From Bacteroidales bacterium (lineage in GTDB: Bacteria > Bacteroidota > Bacteroidia > Bacteroidales > UBA932): a DNA stretch of 45,396 nt. A program made the position numbers and the translations under genes. This document shows, one piece after another, positions 11,687-24,425 of this stretch. The stretch is from NCBI GenBank assembly GCA_017544265.1, contig JAFYEM010000005.1, forward strand, positions 1-45,396. Direction: 5' to 3'. A model generated the notes under the pieces. The model was not told the DNA's origin and ran no database searches. It was given only the letters and a program-made list of their open reading frames with translations. Every line of letters starts with the position of its first letter. Position 1 is the first letter of the stretch.

Positions 11687-13543
11687 TTACTGAGCCGTAA
11701 CGATAAGCTCGAGGATCTTGGTTCCGCCGCCGGCAAGGGTGAGTTCCGCTTCAATCAAGTGCTCCCCGGCGCTGAGCCGGACCGAGGGTCCCTGGAAGGG
11801 CGAAATCGTTATGACTCCCCCGATAGGCTCATCATCCAAATACCACTGAACCGAACTCACCGGCTGCGCCTGACTCAGTTCGAGTTCCGGAGTGAAATTA
11901 CTCCCGGCGTTGTAAATCCCGTTGCCCGGATTGGCGATAACGTTATAGTTCAGCACAGTGGAAGGCACTGTAGCATAGAGCGTTACCTGATTGTTGGAGT
12001 ACGAGATGTTTGATAGCTGGATTTCAGAATCCACCCCGTTCCAGCTCCTGGCAGTGTAGGAATTCACCCTGCTATTGCCCGAACCCGAAGGAAACGGAAT
12101 CTTCACATCGTTAGAGTCGTCGTAGTAATATCGCTGGTACTGGGAATAATACGTGTAACCGAACATCAGATTCGACTGGTCTGCTGAAGGAACTATGTAG
12201 CAGCAGGGATGGGAACCATTCTCGTTGATAGAATTGTATTGCTCCCAGTTACTCCAGAGGGACGAGGCTTGCTTGCTGATGGTATTGCCGTCATTATCCA
12301 GTACGGAAACACTTCTGGACGATTTGTCCACATGGGTGACAATCAGGCCGTTGGCGGGAAGCCCTGCATCCCAGCCATTGGAGCCACGGCACTCATAGAC
12401 GAAATACTCCCCGTCCTTGTCGGTAGGCGTCTTGTACGCGATATTGTTGCTGACGCTGGGGATGGTGTAGTTTCCGCTCGAGGAGAACTCCCTGAAAGCG
12501 TCAGCTTCATTGATCCAGCCAAGCAAGATGCGCTCCTCTACCGTAAAGTAAGGCGGAGTCCTGCCGTCATTGTTGTAAGAGCCGCTGTCCATTGTCGAGA
12601 AAGAGAACATTGCGGCACTCAAGCCGTTTTCCGCATAATCCACATCGTAAAAATCCGGAAGTCCCATAGCGTGGCCGAACTCGTGGCAGGCCGTACCAAT
12701 GCCGCACATTGTTCCAGCCCTGTCGCCATTGCCGATAAGTTCATTGGTGCAGGCGTATTTGTCAATTTTCTTGCCATCAAGCGTAGTGCTGATTCCTCGG
12801 GCAGACAGTTCCCATTGATGTGGCCATATCGAGTCTTCGTCGTCACTGTCAGCTTCGCCGTAGCCGGCGTAGTACATAAATACAAGGTCAACCTCGCCGT
12901 CAGAATCATTGTCAAACTGAGCGAAATTCACGCTTGAATTAAGGGCGTCGCAAGCATCCCTGACAGCATATCCGGGTTTCTTGTCATTACCATTGCTGTC
13001 ATTCCCTCCATAATAGGCCTTATTGTTGTTGAGGGTAACAGGCCCATAGACATCGAAGATAGGTTCAAATTTGCCGCCGGAATTATCATAATAGAAATCC
13101 CTGGCCGAGCCGGTGCCGCCGTTGACGGAGTAGCCATTCTGGTTAAGGAGATTGCTGAAATCGCTTTGAGCCGTTGAACTCTGGAACGACAAGTCAGAGA
13201 ACTGCACGAGAATAACGAGGAAATGCTTCTGCCCCGAAGCTATTCCGGTCTTGGCCGGAGAGCGGCGGGCGCGGTTCACCGCCTGACGGCGGATTGCAGC
13301 CGCGGCGCGACGAGCGTTCAGTTTGGATGCGGACACCGGACGATAGAAGCCATCCGCATCCTTCTCAACGATCTGTCCCGAAGAGTCACTTACCCAGTGG
13401 AAGAACTCATCTCCGTGTTTCTGAATCATAATGACGCTGCCGTCAGGCTGTGTGGCACGGATAAATCCATGCCTGGCCGGAACGGCTTGGGCAAGAGAAA
13501 AGCAGCAAAGGGCTGCGAGAATCGTTACAATTATCTTTTTCAT
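11687..13543 (-). CDS. Secreted M6-family zinc metalloprotease
   Basis: A 618-residue protein of the immune-inhibitor-A (M6) group. Signal peptide 1-20 and a pro-region rich in Arg/Ala (about 75-95) precede the catalytic domain. The zinc motif HEFGHAMGLPDFYD places HEFGH at 287-291. FDNDSDGEVDLVFMYYAG (210-227) is the usual Asp-rich, probably calcium-binding loop ahead of it. The C-terminal 110 residues form a beta-sandwich, probably a binding or sorting domain. It starts six bases after the upstream lipoprotein gene, so it is the last cistron of the secreted cluster. Likely substrate: extracellular protein. Confidence 0.93.
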   Translation of the reverse strand: MKKIIVTILAALCCFSLAQAVPARHGFIRATQPDGSVIMIQKHGDEFFHWVSDSSGQIVEKDADGFYRPVSASKLNARRAAAAIRRQAVNRARRSPAKTGIASGQKHFLVILVQFSDLSFQSSTAQSDFSNLLNQNGYSVNGGTGSARDFYYDNSGGKFEPIFDVYGPVTLNNNKAYYGGNDSNGNDKKPGYAVRDACDALNSSVNFAQFDNDSDGEVDLVFMYYAGYGEADSDDEDSIWPHQWELSARGISTTLDGKKIDKYACTNELIGNGDRAGTMCGIGTACHEFGHAMGLPDFYDVDYAENGLSAAMFSFSTMDSGSYNNDGRTPPYFTVEERILLGWINEADAFREFSSSGNYTIPSVSNNIAYKTPTDKDGEYFVYECRGSNGWDAGLPANGLIVTHVDKSSRSVSVLDNDGNTISKQASSLWSNWEQYNSINENGSHPCCYIVPSADQSNLMFGYTYYSQYQRYYYDDSNDVKIPFPSGSGNSRVNSYTARSWNGVDSEIQLSNISYSNNQVTLYATVPSTVLNYNVIANPGNGIYNAGSNFTPELELSQAQPVSSVQWYLDDEPIGGVITISPFQGPSVRLSAGEHLIEAELTLAGGGTKILELIVTAQ

Positions 13544-13549
13544 AGCCCT

Positions 13550-15226
13550 TTACTTTTTAATGATAACTCCGTGTGTGCCATCGCTGAGCCAGACCTTCGG
13601 GCCGTCTTCCTTTATGATTTTCATGGTATAGTTCTCCGACAGGACATTGGTTGAGCCGCGGCGCCAGTTGATGGTAATGGAAATATTGCCGTCGCCTTTT
13701 AAATAGCCTTTCTTATAGCCGGTGATTTCAAGCTCCTCCACCTCGGAAGGATCAATCAGGGTATAAGTCTGGAAACCATACTCGTCGTATGAGCGCGTCA
13801 CCTGGTCCGTCCCGGGGTTATATTCCCATTCGAGACCGCTTCCAAGATAGCAGCCATAGACAGTCTCTTGAAGAAGCGGATCTTCTGCTGATGAGCCGCT
13901 GCCGCCATCGTGCCGAGTAATGATGACATTGTCAATAAATGCCCTCTTTGTACTCGTTCCGATTTTAACGGTAGAGGTACTTGTTGCAGCGTCAAAATCC
14001 AGCGAATAAGCTGTGTCCGTAGTAGTCGGTGTGATCTCTTTGGTAACATCTCCCACAGTTACTTGTACATTTCCGTTATCGGTACCATATTTAAGTACAT
14101 TGAGCGTTACAGTAAAACTGTTCGAAAGATCCAGTGACTTGGAAGTGATATAGCCACTGGCGGAGGAGGAACCTAATTTTACGCCGCCGTACCGACTCGT
14201 ATAGGCTTTTGAAGTAGAACCGCTGAAATTCGAGAACTTAGATGAGCTGAATTCCGAAGAAGAATCGCTTGTAGTGTTATTATCAAATTCTTCGCTCAAT
14301 ACTACAACATCGCCGCCGCTGCCGCCGCTGCCGGCCGCCGTGAAATCCGTATCGACGGACATATCCACAGAAAAGACGGCCACTACACCGGGCTGGAGCT
14401 GATAATTATCTCCGTCAAACAAGATGAACTTAGAATAGGTCCCGGCATCGGTAATGAGCGATACTTCCCACACCTGGTCGGACATATCCACTGGGGCGCA
14501 GCCGAACCAGATATTTTCAGCGTGATTGGTGTTGATGGTCAGCGTGGACGACGCGCCATAGTCGATGAGCTCGTGGCTTACGCATTTCCAGTACCAGTCG
14601 CCGACAAAAGGCTCGGTGGCAGTTATTTCCAACGCCCTGACAGTCTGTCCGCTGAGATCGAGTCCGGTAATGGAGACGCAGCAATAGGCGGTCAGGTGGT
14701 CGAAATAAAGGTCCACGTCGCTCGCATCGACCTGACTGCTATATGCAGTACTGCTGGCGGCTATTATCAGGGCTCTCTCGTCCGGAGATCCGGCCGAAGG
14801 AGTCTGCTCCGAAGGGATGCTCACCTTCCACGCCTCGCGGCTTGGGCTGAGTGCCTTCGCCACGGAGGACGGCGACACGGAATAATAGGTGTAAGGCGCG
14901 CTGAATCCGCTGAAATCTATGGTCGCGCTGAAAGTAGCACTGCGGAAATCCTCTGAAGTAGTGACCGCCGCCGCCGTCGCGCTGCCATAGTTAAGCGAAA
15001 GCTTCACCTCGCTGTCGTTGCTGGTCCATAGGGTCGGCCAGGTTTCGCCGTCCTTCTGGCCGAACTGAGCCTTGGTCTGAGATCCCGTTGCCCGGAAAGT
15101 AACCGTCCGGACAGTGGAGGACTCCTCCTGCTGCGCAGCAGGCTCCACCACCTCTCGGGAACACGCAAGGGCGGCAGCTCCTGCGAGCGCCGCCCCTGCG
15201 AAAAATCTAAATATCTTCTTTGTCAT
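13550..15226 (-). CDS. Modular fimbrillin-like lipoprotein
   Basis: A 558-residue lipoprotein with lipobox AALAC and Cys22. About 40-290 resembles the fimbrillin N-terminal domain (SKFILFDGDNYQLQPGVVAVFSVDMSVD). A GSGGSGG linker near 300 leads to a galactose-binding-like beta-sandwich rich in Ser/Thr (GGVKLGSSSASGYITSKSLD), then a C-terminal beta domain (KVWLSDGTHGVIIKK). It starts on the stop of the nuclease gene (TAATG) and ends six bases before the M6 protease gene. A surface-exposed adhesive or substrate-binding role is inferred from the fold only. Confidence 0.78.
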   Translation of the reverse strand: MTKKIFRFFAGAALAGAAALACSREVVEPAAQQEESSTVRTVTFRATGSQTKAQFGQKDGETWPTLWTSNDSEVKLSLNYGSATAAAVTTSEDFRSATFSATIDFSGFSAPYTYYSVSPSSVAKALSPSREAWKVSIPSEQTPSAGSPDERALIIAASSTAYSSQVDASDVDLYFDHLTAYCCVSITGLDLSGQTVRALEITATEPFVGDWYWKCVSHELIDYGASSTLTINTNHAENIWFGCAPVDMSDQVWEVSLITDAGTYSKFILFDGDNYQLQPGVVAVFSVDMSVDTDFTAAGSGGSGGDVVVLSEEFDNNTTSDSSSEFSSSKFSNFSGSTSKAYTSRYGGVKLGSSSASGYITSKSLDLSNSFTVTLNVLKYGTDNGNVQVTVGDVTKEITPTTTDTAYSLDFDAATSTSTVKIGTSTKRAFIDNVIITRHDGGSGSSAEDPLLQETVYGCYLGSGLEWEYNPGTDQVTRSYDEYGFQTYTLIDPSEVEELEITGYKKGYLKGDGNISITINWRRGSTNVLSENYTMKIIKEDGPKVWLSDGTHGVIIKK

Positions 15227-16746
15227 TAGAAACTACCCCAATTATTGCCACTTACCGAGTTAATGTTGGAATACGACTGGAATGAAGACCAACTCGTATT
15301 GCTCTCCGCCGTCTCCTCGATGCTGTCCGGCAAGTTGTGGAACAAATTCAATCCCGTCCAGGTCTCAATCTGGTTCACGCTTACTACATAGTTGGCGTAT
15401 GCACTGTCCGAGTACTCCTTATGTTCGAAGAAGAAACCGATTGTGGATGCCGCAGTAACGTTTCCATTACCATCACGCTTTACCTTCAGAAGGGCCTTCC
15501 AATAATAATTAGGAATGGGCAGACTTGCAGGATTCGCGCTGGACGACGCGCCAGTCAGGTAATTGATAGTCTCGCTGCCTCCGACCTTGCGGTAAAGCGG
15601 TCCGGTGACGACATACACGGTATCTACGGAACTTGTCAGATTACGTACAGCGCCCTCTAGGGAACTCCAGATGCTTCCATTGAATTTATTCTGAAGCTGA
15701 GGAGTCTGGTTTGTCGAGTAGTAAGTCTGAAGGTTCATTGTGTCATCGCTCTTTCGGCTTGCGTTCGGAATCTGATGACCCCGGGCGTACTGGGACGCGC
15801 CGTACATCGTGCCGTAAGCGTTGCTGACAATATTGATCTGCTTATTGTTCGCAATATTCGGATTATAGCGCCAGCTCGAAGTACCTCCGCTGCCGCTGGT
15901 ATGCGCTGCGGTCAGAGGATAGGCGACCCACATTGACGCATAGTAGTTATAGTTGTAACTGTAACTATAGTTCCTGTTCGTCCCTGCGGTGCTTCCGCTG
16001 CCATAGAACTTACCAACAAAGTCCTCGTTCCCTGTCACCTCCGGAAGTTCCAGCCAGCCTCCTGTAGTAGGAGTAGTCTGCTGGGCAGCGGTAGTGAAGG
16101 TCAGGGTATTCGAAGCCCAGCAGTCCACATACTGATTCTGCGCCTCATCCCACTCTGTCACGTATGCCTGGAAGCTGTAGGTAGTGCTCGGTTCCAGAGA
16201 GCTTATCACCATAGAGAAGTTCCCGGAAGTCCCGGTCGTACTGCCAAGGCCGGAAGGTGTAATCCAACTGCCGTTTCCCTTCTTGTAGCGGAAACCACGG
16301 TCGTATATCGTGCCGGTAGCGCCGCTGAAAGAGGCATTCAAGGTCGCCTGGCTGGAGGAGACACCGCTTGCAGCATTTGTCGTTACCGTCGCTGTAGCTA
16401 CAGCTTTGGTGGTGAAGGAGTACTCCGTGCCGTAGAAGGTCTCACTATTAGAAGCATAATCACCCGTACCGCTTACGGTTACATAGGCCTTATAATAATA
16501 AGGAGTGTTTGCAGTAAGACCTGAAAGGCTAGCGCTGAAACTACCGTTGCTATTGGTCGCTGGTAAAGTCTCAGTAAGGTTTCCGGAGGAGGTTCCCCAT
16601 TTGAAACCTACCGCCGTCGGCGTCGCACTCGCTCCGGAGTAGGAGCCCGACAGGGTTGCCCCTGTCGAACTCAAACCCGAAACCGAGTTACTCGTCGTTA
16701 CTGAAGCTGTGGGCTCTTCACCCCCGGCGCCGCCGCCGGATCCGCT
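15226..16746 (-). CDS. Secreted DNA/RNA non-specific endonuclease module, no signal peptide of its own
   Basis: The open frame begins directly after the TGA of the upstream gene, in the same frame. Before any possible start it codes a Ser/Gly linker (SGSGGGAGGEEP). The first start-like codon is TTG at 16674, giving 482 residues without a signal peptide. Counting from that TTG, there are two fibronectin III-like domains (about 1-90 and 95-197), then a complete NUC1-type nuclease: QYARGHQIP with RGH at 298-300, TNQTPQLQNKFNGSIWSSLE (metal-binding Asn), VVTGPLY, and near the end IETWTGLNLFHNLPD. The catalytic residues look intact. The frame continuity suggests a nuclease part of a longer lipoprotein separated by one nonsense codon. 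Confidence 0.85.
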   Translation of the reverse strand, partial: SGSGGGAGGEEPTASVTTSNSVSGLSSTGATLSGSYSGASATPTAVGFKWGTSSGNLTETLPATNSNGSFSASLSGLTANTPYYYKAYVTVSGTGDYASNSETFYGTEYSFTTKAVATATVTTNAASGVSSSQATLNASFSGATGTIYDRGFRYKKGNGSWITPSGLGSTTGTSGNFSMVISSLEPSTTYSFQAYVTEWDEAQNQYVDCWASNTLTFTTAAQQTTPTTGGWLELPEVTGNEDFVGKFYGSGSTAGTNRNYSYSYNYNYYASMWVAYPLTAAHTSGSGGTSSWRYNPNIANNKQINIVSNAYGTMYGASQYARGHQIPNASRKSDDTMNLQTYYSTNQTPQLQNKFNGSIWSSLEGAVRNLTSSVDTVYVVTGPLYRKVGGSETINYLTGASSSANPASLPIPNYYWKALLKVKRDGNGNVTAASTIGFFFEHKEYSDSAYANYVVSVNQIETWTGLNLFHNLPDSIEETAESNTSWSSFQSYSNINSVSGNNWGSF

Positions 16747-19700
16747 TCAATTGGAAGGAGTATAGGTAATTCTAAACTCTACCTGAGAATTATTCGCATT
16801 AGTTACCTGATACCAGAAACTGTTTGCATTACTTGGCAATGAACTAGAGCAATCGTAAACATGATCAAGAGTTGACAATGTTTCCGTATAGGTATTAGCA
16901 GCATTTGCGTTGTACGAAGAAATCGCTGAACTGCTAAAATTAACGCCTACACTAACCTTGGCAGATGCACCTTTGTTTGCATAAATCTCAAACTTTGTTA
17001 TAATGCCAGGGACAGTTGCATGAATATTCTTGCCATTCTTGCCAATTAAAATAGCAGATGAAGTGAATTTATTGTCTCCCGACGATGATTGTGATTTAGC
17101 ACCGTCAGAGAATGTTACGCTTACTCCATCATATGTTTTTGTAGTCGTTCCGGTTGTTGCTGTAGATGTCAGTTGGGATCCATCAATAATTAAAACAACC
17201 GGTTCTGGATTGCTACCACCACTCCCTGCCAATTGAGAGATGGAAATCGTAATCGAATTACCACCTGAAACAGCAAGGGTAACACTACCGGAACGGGCAG
17301 AGCCAGTGTTGGCTGCGACACTATATGTAAGTGTACCACCACTAACGCTTGCGGAAGTAACAATTGTGCCGTCAGGGGTAACAGTTACGTCGGAGTCCGA
17401 AGCGTTGGTAAGAGAGTAAACTCCCGATTCCGAAGCGTTGGTTACGCCATCGGCCGAAACCCCAGTTATGCTTGACTTCAGAGCGGTGATAGACTTGGCA
17501 TTAGGATCAACGTATTCCTCAATGCTCGTAACAAGGATATCGAAATTCGAATGTGATGTGCTATATGCATAGACATAGCCATAAATCTCGACATCCTTTC
17601 CATCGGTGGCGTTTTCGGCTGCAGAGAGGTAGAGTGCTGTATTACCTGTTGTGGTAATGTTCCTTCCGCTCTGAGAACCAATAGCGTGCACATAGACAGC
17701 TGTTGAAGGATTAGCAAATGCACTCTGAATGGCAGATGCCTGGCTGTCAATCTCAACTGCAGTACCGTGATTTACAGTTGCGGTTCCGCTGCCAGAGAAT
17801 GTAGGAGCATTAAACTCATACACATCATTGTATACTGTGGTAGATCCGCTCACTGTACGCACATCACCGGCAGAAAGGCCATGACTGCTCTTATATGCAT
17901 ACATCTTACCGGTTGCATCGCCAATAATCAGAGCACTGCCCTTGACAGCGTAGACAAGGACATCAGGAACTTCATATGTGCCAGCACCACCTGCGAGGAC
18001 GTCGGCTATCGTAGTGACGGGGATCAGAGCAAATGTTGCGCTAACCGTTACAGGACTTGCCGGCATGGTGAATTTATTGTTGGTAACAGTCACTTCGTTA
18101 TCAGAACCATCGACAACGCTGAGCTGATCAAGAGCATAATCGCTATCAGGAGTAACATTCAGGCTGATCTCCTCTCCTTCAGCAGCATAAGGAATGGCAG
18201 TGACTGTTCCATTGGTGGTAGAGTTGACATTGATAGCATAATAAGTCTCTTCTGCCACTTCACTGTCATCATAGCTGGACTTCGTTGCAAATGCTTTGAT
18301 TGTCTTCTGCTGAGAACCGGAAATAGATACTGATGAAAGATATGCCGTGGATGATGTGCTGGGAGTCGAACCATCAAGGGTATAGTAGATTGCCGCGCCA
18401 TCAGTAGAACAGGCAATGGAAACATCGCTGCCGGAAATGCTTATCGTCGGAGTCGCGACTTTAGGGGTAGCAGGCGTACCAGCTTCTGCATTTACTCCCC
18501 AAACCACGAAGCGTTTCGCGATGGATGAAGTGAACGTAATATCAGTATCGGCCGAAATGTCGGAAAGTTCAAGGACAAAATAGAAGTCTTCAGGGTTACC
18601 AGCAAGAGCGAAAGGACTATTGCCGGAAATACCTGAATCAGCTGTAAGAGCAATTGAATCAGGAGAAACAGTTGCTCCGCTTATATTAAGCGAGAGACCC
18701 TTGACACCGTTCCAGGCTGCTGCGTGCAGGTGGAGTTTGGTGGTTCCTGCAGGAACAGTAACGCTCATACTTCCACCCTTGCTACTGGTGCCAACCTTGA
18801 TAGCATCTTCACTATTGACAGTTGCAGAAGAACCATTTGTTCCGGCAGTAAGCGTCACATTGCTGGTTTCAATCACAGAATAATCGGTGACGCCAGTAAT
18901 CGTGTACTGAGCAGTAGCGACCTCAGAGTTAGCCATACCTTCCTTCACTGCGATAGCCTTGATGGTAGTCGTAGCAGTAATGGTGACGCTGTTACCCTGG
19001 GTGCTGGAAGTGGTGGGAACGGAGCCATCGGTGGTGTAGTAAATCGTAGCACCGCTGGTGGCGCAAGAGATGGAGACTTCAGTTCCGGAAGCGACTTCGC
19101 CTGCAGCAGGGCTGAAAGTAGGAATAGCAACCTGCTCCATAGCTGTAGCAGGAACAAGGACGATTGCGTTGTAGCCTGAACCAGTGTAGAATGCGAAATA
19201 AGCATTGCTTGTATTCCTGGCAAGGATGCGGGTAGCATCAGCAGCCACATAAATCTTATATGTACCATCGCCGTTGTCATCAATACCCATCAGGCACTTG
19301 GTGGCATCGTATGAGTTCTCGTCAACAAGGTCTGCAGAGTTACCAGATGTCCAGCCAATAAAGTTGCTGCCATTCTTGATAGTATAACCACTGCCGCTTG
19401 TTGCGATTGTCCAAACCAGAGATGCGTCACCAGAATAACTTGAGGTGCTACCAGAGTAATCAACAGAAGCGATACGGGTCCCGGATGCTTCACCCTTAAG
19501 GGCATAATAATTACCGCTATTCTGGGCAAGAATGACATAGTCACCATCAAGAGAAGTAACATCCTCAGGAGAAATGCCGGACATGTTGACACCGGTGTTG
19601 TTCAGCCAGCCTTCCTGGAACTTGATGCTCCTGCCGACAGGAACGGTGATTTCCTTGGTGTAGCTCTTGTTGTCGGTAGTGTAAGCAACGACAGTGAGTT

Positions 19701-20505
19701 TCTCACCTTCAGCAATCTCTGCGCCCCAGGAAGTGAACCAAACGTCCATGCTGGTGCCGGAAAGCGGAGTGGCATAGAGAACCTCAATTGAGTTATCGGT
19801 GCCGTAAACCTCAAGTCCTTCACCGGCGGTAAGGTTGAAATGACGGCCACCGGCAAGTTGCTTGCCTTCGGCGGTAATCTTGACCTTATTGATTTCAACA
19901 CTTGAAGCGAAGTTCTTCAGGGTGATCTTGTTGAGAGCGGTCCCTCTGAGGAAAGAAGCTTCCCAATCGGTCTGCACAGTGGCGAAGGTCTCTGGCTTTG
20001 CTACCATAATGTATGCGGCGGGGTCGTAGGAAGAAGCCGTTGCATTCTGGATGGCAGGAAGGTTTACCTTGTAGTTGGCTGCGTTGGTGTTGCTGCTGGC
20101 TACAGCAGCAGATGCAGGGTAGAGACCCTGATACTTATACTCACTTGCCGTTTCAGGAGTCACGCTGAACTCGAACAGAGCCTCGGGATCGCCGTCGAAA
20201 AGATCGGCCGATGCATCGGTGCTGGTTGCGAAAGTAGGTTTCTCACCTGCGGTAAGGGCAAGTATCATATACTCATCGGTTCCCCAGAGAATGGAGTTGG
20301 CCGTTCCCTGATAAGTATCGATGTAGGTCTTGAGTTCAGGTTCCTCACCTTTGATTTCATCTGCAGTGGCATGGACCCTGATCGTTATAGCATTCTCGTT
20401 GGGAGCCTGCTCTTTGTCGTTGATGTTCTCGAGTTCCCTGGAGCAGGAAACAACTGTAAGGGCAGCAACTGCTGCACCGGCTAAAAATTTAAGAGTTTTC
20501 TTCAT
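16747..20505 (-). CDS. Giant modular lipoprotein (fimbrillin-like, chitobiase-type and BACON domains)
   Basis: A 1252-residue lipoprotein with lipobox VVSC (Cys21). Rough layout: fimbrillin-like 35-310; a lectin-like beta domain 318-455; a chitobiase C-terminal-like module 462-535 (ATIYYTTDGSVPTTSS); a beta-sandwich 540-676; a second chitobiase-type module 685-755; an InlB-type repeat 757-826; an OB-fold-like domain 830-998 of the kind seen in secreted nucleases; a BACON-like domain 1005-1093; a GSGGSNPEP linker; and a final beta-sandwich to 1252. It ends at a TGA after which the same frame runs on into linker and nuclease. The 50-residue ORF upstream and a TAAATTTG promoter drive it. Confidence 0.8.
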   Translation of the reverse strand: MKKTLKFLAGAAVAALTVVSCSRELENINDKEQAPNENAITIRVHATADEIKGEEPELKTYIDTYQGTANSILWGTDEYMILALTAGEKPTFATSTDASADLFDGDPEALFEFSVTPETASEYKYQGLYPASAAVASSNTNAANYKVNLPAIQNATASSYDPAAYIMVAKPETFATVQTDWEASFLRGTALNKITLKNFASSVEINKVKITAEGKQLAGGRHFNLTAGEGLEVYGTDNSIEVLYATPLSGTSMDVWFTSWGAEIAEGEKLTVVAYTTDNKSYTKEITVPVGRSIKFQEGWLNNTGVNMSGISPEDVTSLDGDYVILAQNSGNYYALKGEASGTRIASVDYSGSTSSYSGDASLVWTIATSGSGYTIKNGSNFIGWTSGNSADLVDENSYDATKCLMGIDDNGDGTYKIYVAADATRILARNTSNAYFAFYTGSGYNAIVLVPATAMEQVAIPTFSPAAGEVASGTEVSISCATSGATIYYTTDGSVPTTSSTQGNSVTITATTTIKAIAVKEGMANSEVATAQYTITGVTDYSVIETSNVTLTAGTNGSSATVNSEDAIKVGTSSKGGSMSVTVPAGTTKLHLHAAAWNGVKGLSLNISGATVSPDSIALTADSGISGNSPFALAGNPEDFYFVLELSDISADTDITFTSSIAKRFVVWGVNAEAGTPATPKVATPTISISGSDVSIACSTDGAAIYYTLDGSTPSTSSTAYLSSVSISGSQQKTIKAFATKSSYDDSEVAEETYYAINVNSTTNGTVTAIPYAAEGEEISLNVTPDSDYALDQLSVVDGSDNEVTVTNNKFTMPASPVTVSATFALIPVTTIADVLAGGAGTYEVPDVLVYAVKGSALIIGDATGKMYAYKSSHGLSAGDVRTVSGSTTVYNDVYEFNAPTFSGSGTATVNHGTAVEIDSQASAIQSAFANPSTAVYVHAIGSQSGRNITTTGNTALYLSAAENATDGKDVEIYGYVYAYSTSHSNFDILVTSIEEYVDPNAKSITALKSSITGVSADGVTNASESGVYSLTNASDSDVTVTPDGTIVTSASVSGGTLTYSVAANTGSARSGSVTLAVSGGNSITISISQLAGSGGSNPEPVVLIIDGSQLTSTATTGTTTKTYDGVSVTFSDGAKSQSSSGDNKFTSSAILIGKNGKNIHATVPGIITKFEIYANKGASAKVSVGVNFSSSAISSYNANAANTYTETLSTLDHVYDCSSSLPSNANSFWYQVTNANNSQVEFRITYTPSN

Positions 20506-20516
20506 GGCGCAGTAGT

Positions 20517-20669
20517 TTAAAAATCACCATTTTCATTAGTGTCAGTGTCATCATAATGGCCGGCACCTCCCGTATGGTAGCCATCAGGATTACTCAGAAT
20601 ACTCCCCTCGAATCGTACCACGAGGGACTCGCAGCTGGGCTGCTGATAAATGAGCTTAGTTTTTGTCAT
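20517..20669 (-). CDS. Small ORF (50 aa) preceding the giant lipoprotein
   Basis: ATG 20669 to TAA 20517, 50 residues, ending 11 bases before the lipoprotein start. It begins MTKTKLIYQQPS and has no signal peptide. Its first half carries Y-x2-P-x6-V-R-x-EG-x2-L, the same spacing as the 49-residue ORF at 44228-44377, which also precedes a fimbrillin-like lipoprotein. The second half is rich in Asp, Asn and Gly and ends GDF. Similar tiny genes are common next to lipoprotein genes in Bacteroidales, but no function is known to me. Confidence 0.7.
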   Translation of the reverse strand: MTKTKLIYQQPSCESLVVRFEGSILSNPDGYHTGGAGHYDDTDTNENGDF

Positions 20670-20735
20670 AATGTATTGAATTTAAATTAAATAACACTCA
20701 ACCAACTAATGGAAAAAAGCTACGTCAGCCGGCTC

Positions 20736-20758
20736 TTAAGGGCTAGAACAGCCCTTAA
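20736..20758 (-). promoter_or_regulatory. Leader hairpin upstream of the small ORF
   Basis: TTAAGGGCT (20736-20744) pairs perfectly with AGCCCTTAA (20750-20758) around a 5-base loop. In the minus-strand mRNA it lies about 65 bases before the small ORF, and a T6 run follows about 19 bases after the stem. An attenuator is possible but the T run is not directly adjacent. Confidence 0.4.
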
Positions 20759-20797
20759 AATCACTACTAACTACGCATAATATTCCCATTCAGCCGG

Positions 20798-20805
20798 CAA
20801 ATTTA
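20798..20805 (-). promoter_or_regulatory. Promoter -7 box of the lipoprotein-nuclease-protease cluster
   Basis: TAAATTTG on the minus strand, preceded by TTG with a 20-base spacer (Bacteroidota -33/-7 layout). The leader to the small ORF is about 125 bases. Confidence 0.65.
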
Positions 20806-21000
20806 GGCATTACTTTCTTCTTATACAAGATTTATCGACAATCTTTTCAATAAATTATCAACAACTTTTCAACAGTCAAACATAACCCTCGGATTATCAG
20901 ATAATACCCTTTTATATATAGTGCGATATTTGGGACAAATTGTTAGTTTTCTTTTCAACGAAAATTGTGGATTTTTGACATGGGGCTCTGGAGAATGCTG

Positions 21001-21512: not shown

Positions 21513-24425
21513 TTATTTCGACAAAAATTTGAGCGTTTCATCCACCACCTTTCCGAGGGCAGAAGGATTATCCACAATCTCCAGCGGGAAGCCGAAGGAA
21601 ACCGCCTTGCCGGAGCAACCCACCGAGGCCGGAATTCCAGTGTCGCGATAACGCATCAGAACAGTGGACCCGGGGCCGGAAGGAGAAAGCCCGTCAGGAT
21701 GCTCGACTCTATAGAAATTCCGGTTCCATTCATTATTATAATGCAGCCGTAAAGAAGGAGAGAACACCCCGCAGCCGGAAACATCCCCCTTGCGGCTGCC
21801 GAAACCAGTCAGAGTCTTGTATCCGAACACCTCCGTAAGGAAAGGGACATCCTCAGGAGTGATGTCCGAAGCGATATAGGCACCTGAAATTATCAACTTG
21901 CCGCCGGCAGATGAATAGGCCCTGAGCAAATCCTTCAGGGAAGGAGAAAAAACCGCGAAGCGCTCGGGACCGCCGGGAAGAGAGCAGCGGCGCTGCTTGC
22001 CACAGATTATGTCCATCACGGAACAGGCCGAAAGGCTCATTTCCCCAAGCGCACCGACAGAAGATGAACAGAAAGCATACCCGGCATCGAAAATCGCCTT
22101 TCCATGGACGTATGGATAGTCAAAGGTATTGCCTCCGATGACGCTGCCCGCCATATCCGGATAGGAACCGCCGAAGCCGGGATCAGAATTCGAAGTCCAC
22201 TCGGCAGAACGGTCGAACTGATACTGTTCCCCGCAGTAGGAAATATCCCTGATCCACGGCACCCCGCTGTCCATATTGTCCATAAAGCCGGCATAACTGC
22301 CGGTGTCTATGACCTGAGGCCCGCTGACCCTGGTAAAATTATTGACAACCATAACCGTCCCCTTCGTACGCGAAGGAACTCCCGCGCTCAGCGTTTCAGA
22401 AGGGAAACTCACGCCCCCGTCATTGCAGGCAAGAATTCTGAAACTGTAAATATGCCCTTTGTCTATAGGAACGTTGACACTGTAACGTCCGGACGCTGAA
22501 CGCTTGACTCCCGAGACCGGCTGATCGTCAAAGCCCCTGCCGTCCAGCCGCGTCTGAATCCGGAACGAATGGGCAGCAGCAGTCGGTTCGAGCGAATCCT
22601 CCGGACTCACCCAACTCAGATTCACACTCTTTCCGTCGGGCGAAAGCTCAGCCGCGAAACTCTCCACGGGAAGCGGAGCCACGGCATATTTGACGCCATA
22701 GCGGGCACTCAGATACTTCAGCACACCCTTATAGACAGACCTCGAAGCAGCGAACTGGAAAGAAGGGTCCAGGCCGTACTGCATGTCGGAGAAATTCTGA
22801 TGCGAAAGCAGTTCCAGCAGCAGCGCAGGCACGGAAGTAGTGCGCGATTCACTGTAAGAACGGTCCCAGGTACCTCTGCGGGCCCAGTCGGGATTGAACT
22901 GCGAGCGGATATCATCCACGATCTGGCTCTGTACCATATCCACAAGCGTCCTCGACGTAAGCCGGGACTCGCCGGAGGGCAGTTCCTCCTTGTTGTCGCA
23001 TTTGGAAGTATAGATGACGAGAGTGCCCACGGTCGTGGAATCAGGAGTCACCCCGGCATCGCTGTGGAAAGCAATACTCATGTCTATGGGGACCTTCAGC
23101 CCGGGCGCCTTCGGATTGACGGAAGAGCCGCCGCTCAGACGGGAAGTCCAGGCGCCGCGCCCGGCATAGTCGCGCGTATAGTCATTGTCCCAATCGTTAA
23201 AAAGCGACGCGGGAGTGCCGGAAAAGAGCATGGAATACATGGCTCCTTCCGCAAAGCACGGCAGTCCGGATGTGCCGCCGCCACGGTCTATCTTACCCAT
23301 TCCCCCGCCTATGCGCACCGCATCAGCAGTAATGGAGGAACCCGCAGCGACCCAGTGGCCGGAAGGAATCTGGTTGTCCAGGACCACCTCCGAGGAAGAG
23401 TCCATGTCGAAAGTCCCGAGATATATCCACATTCCGCCGCCCATCTTCTGGTTGACTATAAATTCGGTTTCACCACCAAGGTGGCGGACAGTATAACGCA
23501 CGGCCGGGGAACTGTCCGCAAGAGTCTTATAGGAAATATAGACAGCATACTCGCCGCGGGGCAGTCCGGAAGCGCTCCAGATTGCAGTCGCAGAAACCTT
23601 GTCACGCTCGGCCGAAGCAAGCCTGACAGTGCCCATCGAAAAAGGATTCTCATCGGCAGTATAGACTTCTTTCTTGTCCGCAAAACCAGCACCGGCATCC
23701 TTCCACGCCCCTTTTTCAGTGTATTTACCAAGCAGCCGGACACCCTCGGGGCGCTCCTCGAACGCCGGGTCGTTGTCCGCTATCAGCTCAACGCTGTTGA
23801 CATCCCTCTCACGAGGAGTGAACACATAGGCCCCCGCATTTTCCAGCATCGGGATAAGGTAGTTCAGGACATAGCTCTGGGTATAGACATCCTCCAGGGT
23901 GCGGAAGATAGGCCCCCTCTGCCAGCGCCACAGTTCCCCGTCGAAATAACGGCCGTGGCTCTGCCAGACGGCCAGCTGACGTCCGGCGAGCCCCCGCTTG
24001 GGAAGATGCGCTCCGACCCGGGTAACAATCGCACGGCGCTTCGGAGCCTCAACCCGGAAATCGAATGCTGCAGGATTACCGTTTCTCCCGCGTTCAGGCA
24101 CCGCCAGGGTGGAGACATCGGTCTTGCCGCCGAAAATGATACCGAGAGTATATCCCTTGGGAATAAGTTCCTCCATGTAATCGCGCAGCGATTCGAGACT
24201 CTCTTTCCTCCAGGGATAGTCAGACAGGTCCTGGGAAAAATAAAAATCCAGTTCGGTATCCCTCTTGAGGACCTTCTGGAGAGACAGGGCAGTCTTTACG
24301 GTGGTCTCCCTCTTGAGACGTTCCCTTAAAGTATCCACCTGCACCCGGAAGTCGGAAGCCTTCTGGGCGGAGGCAAGGGACGAAAGCGACAGCGCAAATG
24401 CGAATAAAAACAGCCTCAACCTCAT
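21513..24425 (-). CDS. Secreted amidase-fold protein with inserted golvesin-like domain
   Basis: A 970-residue protein with signal peptide 1-20. The catalytic fold matches N-acetylmuramoyl-L-alanine amidases (Amidase_3): WQSHGRYF (H157), TLEDVYTQ (E179), IAFHSDAG (H454) and PALLLELLSHQN (E538) supply the metal ligands and the catalytic Glu. A golvesin C-terminal-like beta-sandwich (about 255-378, AIWSASGLPRGEYAVYISY) is inserted between E179 and H454. A fibronectin-like domain (about 585-690) and a C-terminal alpha/beta domain (about 695-970) follow. Such proteins are often labelled xanthan lyase in databases; cleavage of a wall glycan-peptide bond is more consistent with the motifs. Last gene after ABC exporter and vanZ-like, overlapping by ATGA. 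Confidence 0.82.
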   Translation of the reverse strand: MRLRLFLFAFALSLSSLASAQKASDFRVQVDTLRERLKRETTVKTALSLQKVLKRDTELDFYFSQDLSDYPWRKESLESLRDYMEELIPKGYTLGIIFGGKTDVSTLAVPERGRNGNPAAFDFRVEAPKRRAIVTRVGAHLPKRGLAGRQLAVWQSHGRYFDGELWRWQRGPIFRTLEDVYTQSYVLNYLIPMLENAGAYVFTPRERDVNSVELIADNDPAFEERPEGVRLLGKYTEKGAWKDAGAGFADKKEVYTADENPFSMGTVRLASAERDKVSATAIWSASGLPRGEYAVYISYKTLADSSPAVRYTVRHLGGETEFIVNQKMGGGMWIYLGTFDMDSSSEVVLDNQIPSGHWVAAGSSITADAVRIGGGMGKIDRGGGTSGLPCFAEGAMYSMLFSGTPASLFNDWDNDYTRDYAGRGAWTSRLSGGSSVNPKAPGLKVPIDMSIAFHSDAGVTPDSTTVGTLVIYTSKCDNKEELPSGESRLTSRTLVDMVQSQIVDDIRSQFNPDWARRGTWDRSYSESRTTSVPALLLELLSHQNFSDMQYGLDPSFQFAASRSVYKGVLKYLSARYGVKYAVAPLPVESFAAELSPDGKSVNLSWVSPEDSLEPTAAAHSFRIQTRLDGRGFDDQPVSGVKRSASGRYSVNVPIDKGHIYSFRILACNDGGVSFPSETLSAGVPSRTKGTVMVVNNFTRVSGPQVIDTGSYAGFMDNMDSGVPWIRDISYCGEQYQFDRSAEWTSNSDPGFGGSYPDMAGSVIGGNTFDYPYVHGKAIFDAGYAFCSSSVGALGEMSLSACSVMDIICGKQRRCSLPGGPERFAVFSPSLKDLLRAYSSAGGKLIISGAYIASDITPEDVPFLTEVFGYKTLTGFGSRKGDVSGCGVFSPSLRLHYNNEWNRNFYRVEHPDGLSPSGPGSTVLMRYRDTGIPASVGCSGKAVSFGFPLEIVDNPSALGKVVDETLKFLSK

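Follow-up and report, generated by a model that had tools for sequence, protein, structure and literature searches.

Eukaryotic viruses offer well-known cases of stop-codon readthrough that relies on a dedicated 3′ RNA structure, among them the alphavirus UGA stem-loop and the gammaretrovirus pseudoknot, with a stop-to-structure spacing of about 8 nt. The bacterial SECIS places a hairpin directly downstream of a UGA, and to our knowledge selenocysteine is the structured UGA case known in cellular bacterial genes. Phage Qβ, in the account given in PMC8067240, reads through the UGA of its coat protein to produce A1, with insertion of tryptophan at a frequency of about 1 in 15. For E. coli at large, the portions of PMC11126739 and PMC5289835 on this subject describe TGA as the leakiest stop and a T following it as lowering readthrough, the former also reporting tryptophan as the residue inserted.

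The locus described here lies in a 45,396-nt stretch of a Bacteroidales genome (GCA_017544265.1, contig JAFYEM010000005.1; hereafter the window), in which one in-frame TGA separates a large lipoprotein from a nuclease. The reading we favour, with a probability of roughly 0.88 on comparative sequence grounds, is programmed, structure-stimulated UGA readthrough that yields the lipoprotein and, as a minor form, a nuclease-bearing version. Like the viral examples, the locus has a stable 3′ RNA structure several nucleotides past the stop, but those depend on eukaryotic ribosomes and their release factor, whereas here the genes are bacterial and chromosomal and the structures are tandem simple hairpins. 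As with A1, a leaky UGA would yield a structural protein in a minor form that is extended at its C-terminus, but A1 belongs to a phage rather than a cell, the extension here is an enzyme, and the passages of PMC8067240 dealing with A1 mention no family of conserved 3′ hairpins. The general leakiness of UGA in E. coli is unprogrammed, while here a conserved element accompanies a conserved functional domain past the stop. No report of such a lipoprotein–UGA–hairpin–nuclease readthrough was found in the literature searched.

The arrangement occupies a single frame of the minus strand, from an ATG at 20505 through the TGA at 16749–16747 and on, without interruption, to a TAA at 15228–15226 (1252 aa, the stop and 506 aa), with the following parts:

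16747..20505, minus strand: lipoprotein ORF of 1252 aa ending at the TGA, the predicted main product (ORF reading; lipobox by eye)
16750..16752, minus strand: AAT codon preceding the stop, NAN class (A at −2 in 95/96 loci)
16747..16749, minus strand: UGA, candidate readthrough stop (TGA in 103/103 comparable loci; one further locus TAG)
16724..16739, minus strand: hairpin H1, CCGGCG-GCGG-CGCCGG, first core pair 7 nt past the UGA (alignment, compensatory changes)
16711..16723, minus strand: hairpin H2, GGGU-GAAGA-GCCC, abutting H1 (alignment; pairing in family 1, covariation in family 2)
15988..16746, minus strand: Ser/Gly linker and two FN3-like units, in frame past the UGA (frame reading; without Pfam match)
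15325..15987, minus strand: NUC1/Endonuclease_NS domain (DNA/RNA non-specific endonuclease) with RGH motif (PF01223, E 7.4e-36)
15226..15228, minus strand: TAA ending the readthrough frame (frame reading)

The initial annotation proved accurate on the dividing TGA, its frame and both ends, on the intact NUC1 nuclease behind it (the PF01223 match covers residues 254–474 of the 506-aa part), and on the want of a good start for that part, whose first candidate is a TTG at codon 25 and first ATG codon 179. The lipoprotein bears a lipoprotein-type N-terminus, MKKTLKFLAGAAVAALTVVSC, as judged by eye, together with CHB_HEX_C_1/Fn3_assoc and Flg_new_2 domains (Pfam), and the linker SGSGGGAGGEEP follows immediately 3′ of the TGA. 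The two units behind the linker gave no Pfam match at 0.01, so that their label "fibronectin-like" is interpretive. The nuclease matches extracellular endonuclease 1g8t, which we take to be the Serratia enzyme, with an E-value of 1.6e-17, and the last A of the terminal TAA is the start of the next lipoprotein gene (TAATG). An Rfam search over 15000–21000 returned two sub-threshold matches, neither at the joint, and PADLOC found nothing on the two window proteins.

The same build, namely a long lipoprotein frame, a stop and, in the same frame, a nuclease part that lacks an export signal of its own, was read at 103 loci (96 plus seven read later) from Candidatus Cryptobacteroides, the genus of the window, and Alistipes/Tidjanibacter. 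The element occurs in one or two copies per genome, and the window's own genome holds a second, diverged copy of the TGA-split arrangement. The proposal of the initial annotation that a GGA-to-TGA change created the stop fails on this account, since the same stop at the same kind of joint recurs in all these loci and in the diverged second copy. The first listing of the element contained 49 rows, of which 36 were accepted and 13, with three mismatches each, were dropped; 12 of the latter showed no nuclease match, either in frame or elsewhere on that strand of the locus, and one (L089) had its nuclease in another frame. A later listing of 55 rows contributed 30 loci, 10 more that were read and 15 at loci already read. 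The 103 include two imperfect loci, L117 (a second TGA within the element) and L354 (73 aa past the stop), and two cut by contig ends (L107 and L108, both G423); left outside are L224/L374, L423, L426, L427 and L430, each with TGA at the stop column and a broken nuclease frame. Searching with the nuclease profile, without regard to the stop, retrieved at least 30 new loci of this build, 30/30 with TGA among the matches listed, leaving out close matches with a frame of at least 700 aa (fused by frame length) and the contig-cut G417 and G335. The loci are phylogenetically non-independent, and the TGA moves together with the nuclease module. The C-termini before the stop fall into 84 clusters (crude ungapped 40% cut, 96 loci).

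A long, in-frame and protein-conserved extension, which is one criterion of programmed readthrough, was found in the nuclease matches and dN/dS values given below. Past the stop, the median length of open frame is 382 aa (69 loci), compared with 13.5 aa behind the 146 control ORFs that had more than 900 nt behind them. Nine of these 146 were open for at least 250 aa, and the control openings of at least 150 aa that were inspected were mostly next genes or antisense frames. A specific leaky stop in a specific context, a second such criterion, was likewise observed. The initial annotation had suggested comparing orthologues for a sense codon or a conserved stop, and the stop is conserved: TGA occupies it at 103/103 loci against 52/219 control genes in the same stretches, the sole TAG being at one further locus outside the 103 (L272, Tidjanibacter, cut by the contig start). 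An A at −2 precedes it at 95/96 loci (86/219 controls), and U at +4 is found at 3/96, compared with 14/52 control TGA genes. A homologue of the window's last domain that ends a protein without nuclease (L040) stops at TAA, and another lipoprotein with a related segment (L041) at TAG.

A strong hairpin follows the TGA, its core mostly starting 7 nt downstream as read from alignments, often with a second hairpin behind it. The hairpins, the main clue at this joint, are missing from the initial annotation. Several sequence families exist, among which compensatory base changes alter the encoded amino acids. In family 1 (41 sequences), 99.6% of H1 cells are paired, with compensatory changes at two pairs, and 91.5% of H2 cells; 13 double-change cells were counted against 2.2 in shuffles (0/500 as high; slid controls at most 6). 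Family 2 (14 sequences), with strong covariation in H2, gave 23 against 6.5 (0/500; slid controls at most 3), and family 3 has three pairs with double changes. Weaker measures were matched more often by shuffles, namely pairs with a double change in family 1 (22/500 as high) and pair types in family 2 (67/500). RNAalifold recovers H1 and H2 unaided. Owing to the high GC content downstream of the stop, fold z-scores are modest, averaging −1.7 (42/69 loci below −1.5; controls −0.66). When the best hairpin was searched for freely, its offsets scattered over 0–10, as outer pairs lengthen the stem. The hairpin is weak in the G016 copy (−4.9 kcal/mol) and weaker or more distant in L134 and in Alistipes, where the main stem starts about 10–16 nt from the stop by eye. 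Conserved 3′ RNA structure at entry-channel distance, also a criterion of programmed readthrough, was thereby found. An intrinsic transcription terminator (hairpin plus U run) was rejected, TTTT occurring within +20..+70 at only 2/80 loci.

Such a hairpin could instead be a DNA recombination joint for swapping the last lipoprotein domain, with the TGA merely part of the moving module, as L126 and L129 illustrate by a clean last-domain swap ending at the TGA (96.7% identical up to −462, 97% from +7). A recombinase site should, however, retain its sequence, whereas the compensatory changes retain pairing and alter sequence; moreover, TGA has been kept over TAA although nuclease synonymous sites are saturated in 759/2926 pairs, and each genome has only one or two copies. 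We regard a purely recombinational role as very unlikely, but domain swapping and readthrough can both be true.

The nuclease profile was matched in frame at 93/96 loci (one of them truncated), with RGH, the catalytic motif of NUC1/Endonuclease_NS, in 85/93 and [RK]GH in 91/93, so that profile and motif both place the part in PF01223; two other readings gave the same identity in 27/27 and 9/10, the tenth being truncated. In the 24 nuclease pairs with dS below 0.80, dN/dS ranged from 0.06 to 0.32, values that show purifying selection among close pairs. Over all 532 pairs with dS below 1.5 the median was 0.45 and the maximum 0.87, a rise attributed to saturation (77 of the then 80 loci, L107, L108 and L117 left out; distant pairs unused). 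These counts bear on the possibility of a dead gene or an assembly error, in which a nonsense change severed a once-fused nuclease. Fused lipoprotein–nuclease genes without an intervening stop do exist (the tree took a chosen subset of 17 fused forms, two being the same gene, and 7 separate forms), and in at least seven TGA-element copies the nuclease part is broken or doubtful (L117, L354, L224=L374, L423, L426, L427 and L430), so that it is lost at times. Yet the same stop recurs in 103 loci, with purifying selection beyond it in close pairs and two copies in one genome, which refutes severance unless all are artefacts; general decay after the stop and lack of recurrence, the marks of a pseudogene, were not seen, a few single copies being broken further downstream. 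Among the three options of the initial annotation, programmed readthrough is strongly supported, and recent nonsense mutation and assembly error have a negligible probability.

A further alternative makes the nuclease a separate cistron, translated by re-initiation or internal initiation past the UGA, the common frame being a matter of history. A TTG, GTG or ATG does lie somewhere in the linker at 74/93 loci, including the TTG of the window, but none precedes the domain at 19/93 and no ATG does at 48/93. The same frame is retained in all 103 counted loci, and re-initiation needs neither TGA nor hairpin. Nucleases equipped with a start and signal of their own, which the initial annotation had named as evidence against a joined product, were found, but only as other genes: 27 among the 62 nuclease places read have an own start, following in-frame stops that are TAA in 12, TAG in 3 and TGA in 12, with only a short same-frame stretch upstream in 24/27 (exceptions L207, 487 aa; L217, 340 aa; L230, 186 aa). 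Those of the same genus mostly carry an export signal, which the nuclease part lacks; peak 15-aa hydropathy in the first 60 aa past the stop is 1.41 versus 3.23 in a separate-gene example. Independent initiation is on balance very unlikely. Beyond the genus, the close nuclease subfamily is seldom encountered (6/393 genomes order-wide at 1e-58, the window's own included), and phage origin was rejected, 12 phage records giving partial nuclease matches of which none covers 80% of the query.

Special decoding of UGA, by selenocysteine or a dedicated suppressor tRNA, is suggested by the UGA and immediate hairpin, which resemble a bacterial SECIS in outline. Unlike a SECIS, however, the joint is a linker and not an active site, and no selenocysteine genes were found: selB and tRNA-Sec each exceeded the cut-off in 0/36 genomes, the weaker selB matches in all 36 being taken for other GTPases and the four best tRNA-Sec matches being tRNA-Leu. 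Selenocysteine insertion was rejected on these grounds. The initial annotation had also pointed to TGA recoding through tRNA content, which did not hold up: no TCA anticodon is present among the 41 tRNAs of the near-complete relative G016 (five read from neighbouring loci), and the tRNAs recovered for the window's MAG, tRNA-Trp itself not being among them, include no UGA suppressor. Codon reassignment was rejected as well, with TGA the ordinary stop of 52/219 control ORFs, and special decoding, already disfavoured, can practically be dismissed.

Under programmed readthrough, termination at the UGA would be the outcome for most ribosomes and would free the surface lipoprotein. The distance of about 7 nt would place H1, in many cases backed by a stacked H2, where the mRNA enters a ribosome whose A site is occupied by the UGA. 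From there it may slow RF2-dependent release or make it less favourable, which would let a near-cognate tRNA, tRNA-Trp being the likeliest, decode the UGA in a minority of cases. The extended product would be the same lipoprotein with FN3-like units and the NUC1 nuclease, so that a set fraction of the surface protein would bear the nuclease. We infer the readthrough event, its rate, the inserted residue and the surface location from sequence; the dose may depend on RF2, on Trp-tRNA or on the growth state.

The joint (NAN-UGA-N6/7-tandem hairpins) is quite probably a portable RNA "stop-but-leak" device general to Bacteroidales, by which swappable surface-lipoprotein domains are made in excess while a set fraction of them is fitted with a nuclease. 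It would be the first UGA readthrough family in cellular bacterial genes that is conserved, driven by RNA structure and independent of selenocysteine. In that case gene callers would overlook the enzyme domain in these gut-bacterial surface proteins, and a stop codon beside a hairpin need not end a gene. About a hundred natural variants, with their sequence families and compensatory pairs, form a set from which to learn how a hairpin can prevail over RF2 in bacterial translation. Alistipes sp. CHKCI003, the record of which is titled as an isolate, carries the arrangement, which may therefore be testable in culture.

In the window, one reading frame on the minus strand is split by a single TGA codon and remains open as far as a TAA codon, as proposed in the initial annotation:

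20505 to 16747, minus strand: lipoprotein ORF of 1252 aa, with ATG at 20505 and its end at TGA 16749-16747
from that TGA to 15226, minus strand: extension of 506 aa in the same frame, ending at TAA 15228-15226

The 506-aa part begins with SGSGGGAGGEEP, contains two FN3-like units (assigned by eye) and closes with an Endonuclease_NS (NUC1) domain (PF01223, E 7.4e-36), for which the best sequence match among solved structures is 1g8t, an extracellular endonuclease (E 1.6e-17). The view that this part lacks a good start also held, with the first TTG at codon 25, the first ATG at codon 179 and no start close to the TGA. Comparison with relatives points to programmed readthrough of the UGA at this joint (probability about 0.88), given the poor fit of the rival explanations, the traits of UGA leakiness and a hairpin at the presumed mRNA entry of the ribosome. 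We infer, as we do the size of the effect and the inserted residue, that a minority of surface lipoproteins, in a set proportion, would bear the nuclease, which might perhaps help to use extracellular DNA as food or to clear it, or act against rivals.

Such split loci were found by several surveys. A protein search in 81 genomes was followed by reading 16 of the closest loci. Some encode an uninterrupted lipoprotein-nuclease fusion, two have the nuclease as a separate gene, and six carry a stop at the joint seen in the window. This stop was TGA in the window and in all six, and a near-identical TGA-N6-TCCGGCGGMGGCGYCGGGGGTGA stretch was present in four of these seven joints, though the upstream proteins end differently. 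A pattern search for this element (the TGA with its downstream hairpins), allowing three mismatches so that TAA or TAG would also be detectable, returned 49 rows in 45 of 400 genus genomes. Thirty-six were accepted as elements. The remaining 13 all had three mismatches, and a later reading found no joint ahead of an in-frame nuclease in any of them. The 39 loci assembled (the window, 35 further element loci and three variant loci) all have a complete upstream ORF of 423-1411 aa with a lipoprotein-type start (loose pattern), ending at TGA. An in-phase nuclease frame of 277-532 aa follows in 36; in two more, both from genome G423, it runs off the contig end, and in L117 a second TGA within the element breaks it.

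Independently of the element, a profile built from 27 nuclease domains was run against 400 genus genomes, and close matches with a frame below 700 aa were fetched. Among the matches listed, the 62 nuclease places read comprised 30 new split loci, with a long same-frame upstream ORF, a nuclease without its own signal and TGA as the stop in 30/30; 27 own-start nuclease genes, most of which encode a TM or signal segment, preceded in frame by TAA (12), TAG (3) or TGA (12); four without an upstream stop within the stretch; and one (L224) that carries the TGA but has a one-base break in its frame. The own-start genes form an internal control, by which the TGA bias appears only where readthrough would be needed.

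Among 80 related loci read in a survey including named genomes, 44 were split with TGA, 21 were fused and four fused or cut; the rest were own-start genes except Tidjanibacter L272. Of the 44, 11 had not come up before, among them one Tidjanibacter locus (L314) and three with Alistipes in the title: L296, L305 and L312 (isolate CHKCI003). Candidatus Cryptobacteroides choladohippi carries the same locus as contig G225:C22, which comes from a genome in the window's genus. L272, the only non-TGA joint seen, has TAG near locus position 324 with the same kind of linker, and its upstream part is cut since the contig begins 0.3 kb upstream of the joint. A covariance model of the second hairpin family, built from 14 sequences, gave 55 rows in 48/400 genomes, the reading of which added 16 TGA loci; PF01223 was found in nine of ten downstream proteins tested, the tenth (L354) being truncated at 73 aa. 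The window's own genome contributes one of these 16 on its contig C56, where TGA at 49465 separates a 1333-aa lipoprotein from 535 aa with NUC1; two genes of this type, differing in hairpin family, thus occur in this genome. A late check of unread rows added seven TGA loci with an in-frame nuclease (L351, L421, L422, L424, L425, L428, L429), all with NAN as the codon before TGA, and four other TGA copies with a broken nuclease frame (L423, L426, L427, L430). Together with L117, L354 and L224/L374, the latter are the element copies with a broken or doubtful nuclease (second stop, truncation, frame break), and the lipoprotein frame ahead of the stop is long in all except L423 (24 aa).

With L272 set aside, TGA stands at 96/96 split loci and at 103/103 with the late additions. 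The 219 control ORFs of at least 250 aa from the same stretches end in TAA (100), TAG (67) or TGA (52). A precedes at -2 in 95/96 split loci vs 86/219 controls, and T follows at +4 in 3/96 vs 14/52 control TGA genes. In L040, a nuclease-free protein whose C-terminal domain is homologous to the last domain of the window ends in TAA, and a lipoprotein with a related segment (L041) ends in TAG. PMC11126739 describes UGA as the stop codon that leaks most in E. coli, with less readthrough when T follows and with Trp as the residue mostly inserted; the element has these leaky-UGA traits, the hairpin being extra.

Re-initiation after the UGA could in principle yield the nuclease, but it leaves the common frame and the TGA unexplained, together with the 19/93 loci without ATG, GTG or TTG ahead of the domain. 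Selenocysteine insertion was rejected, as selenocysteine genes were not found in the 36 genomes searched, and so was a dedicated UGA-reading tRNA: the tRNA content, suggested earlier as a check for TGA recoding, included none among the tRNAs of the near-complete relative G016.

Programmed readthrough would also be aided by RNA structure. The 45 nt 3′ of the stop reach an MFE of -12 kcal/mol or lower in 68/69 loci vs 44/218 controls, which is partly G+C content (mean z -1.7 vs -0.66). RNAalifold on 35 family-1 sequences predicts tandem hairpins, H1 from 7 nt past the UGA and H2 directly behind. The distance of such a hairpin should match the mRNA entry of the ribosome, and H1 would be positioned there while the UGA is read. 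Across 41 family-1 sequences, a single H1 pair takes the forms G-C, G-U, U-A, A-U and C-G, and another C-G, A-U and U-A; cells with both sides changed number 13 vs 2.2 after shuffling (0/500 shuffles as high; no slid control above 6), and a weaker measure, pairs with double change, gives 22/500. Family 2 has 23 such cells vs 6.5 (0/500 shuffles as high; no slid control above 3), with covariation in three of four H2 pairs, one as U-A, C-G, A-U and G-C, and 67/500 by the weaker measure of pair types. Family 3 forms a single long hairpin at the same distance from the UGA, with three double-changed pairs. Because hairpin changes alter the encoded amino acids (e.g., SGGGAGG to SVGGDGG), the thing conserved after the UGA seems to be RNA rather than peptide. 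Two weak points are the poor hairpin of the G016 copy and the Alistipes-titled loci, where very strong, unrelated hairpins have their main stem beginning about 10-16 nt past the stop, not 7. Rfam gave no family at the window joint. Searches of open-licence PMC literature listed no bacterial chromosomal genes with a conserved readthrough, other than for selenocysteine, that involves a 3′ structure, and a report may exist elsewhere; the mechanism class is known, and this variant is new as far as our searches go.

The nuclease has dN/dS of 0.06-0.32 in the 24 pairs with dS below 0.80, and up to 0.87 in wider pairs with dS near saturation. On a tree built from 102 nucleases, with a chosen subset of the fused and separate forms, the three arrangements (split, fused and separate) are intermixed, with 9 changes by parsimony. 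Loci L126 and L129, otherwise near-identical, have had the entire last lipoprotein domain exchanged, the swap ending at the TGA (-462 to +7); the region around this TGA would be a domain-swapping hot spot. By these results, TGA and hairpin are part of the nuclease module, against which upstream domains are exchanged. Clustering the 40 aa that precede the stop, by a crude ungapped cut, separates the 96 loci into 84 groups. The AT-rich last lipoprotein domain of the window (38% GC at 16850-17149; 38-42% over 16850-17300, below its surroundings) agrees with recent domain exchange.

At 15224-15228 on the minus strand, the lipoprotein gene that comes next (13550-15226) has an ATG whose A is also the last base of the nuclease TAA, and this gene may therefore be translationally coupled to the readthrough. 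The neighbours include an M6-family metalloprotease (11687-13543) and, at 21513-24425, a protein that matches golvesin-C and, below cut-off, amidase_3; together they may form a cluster of exported enzymes.
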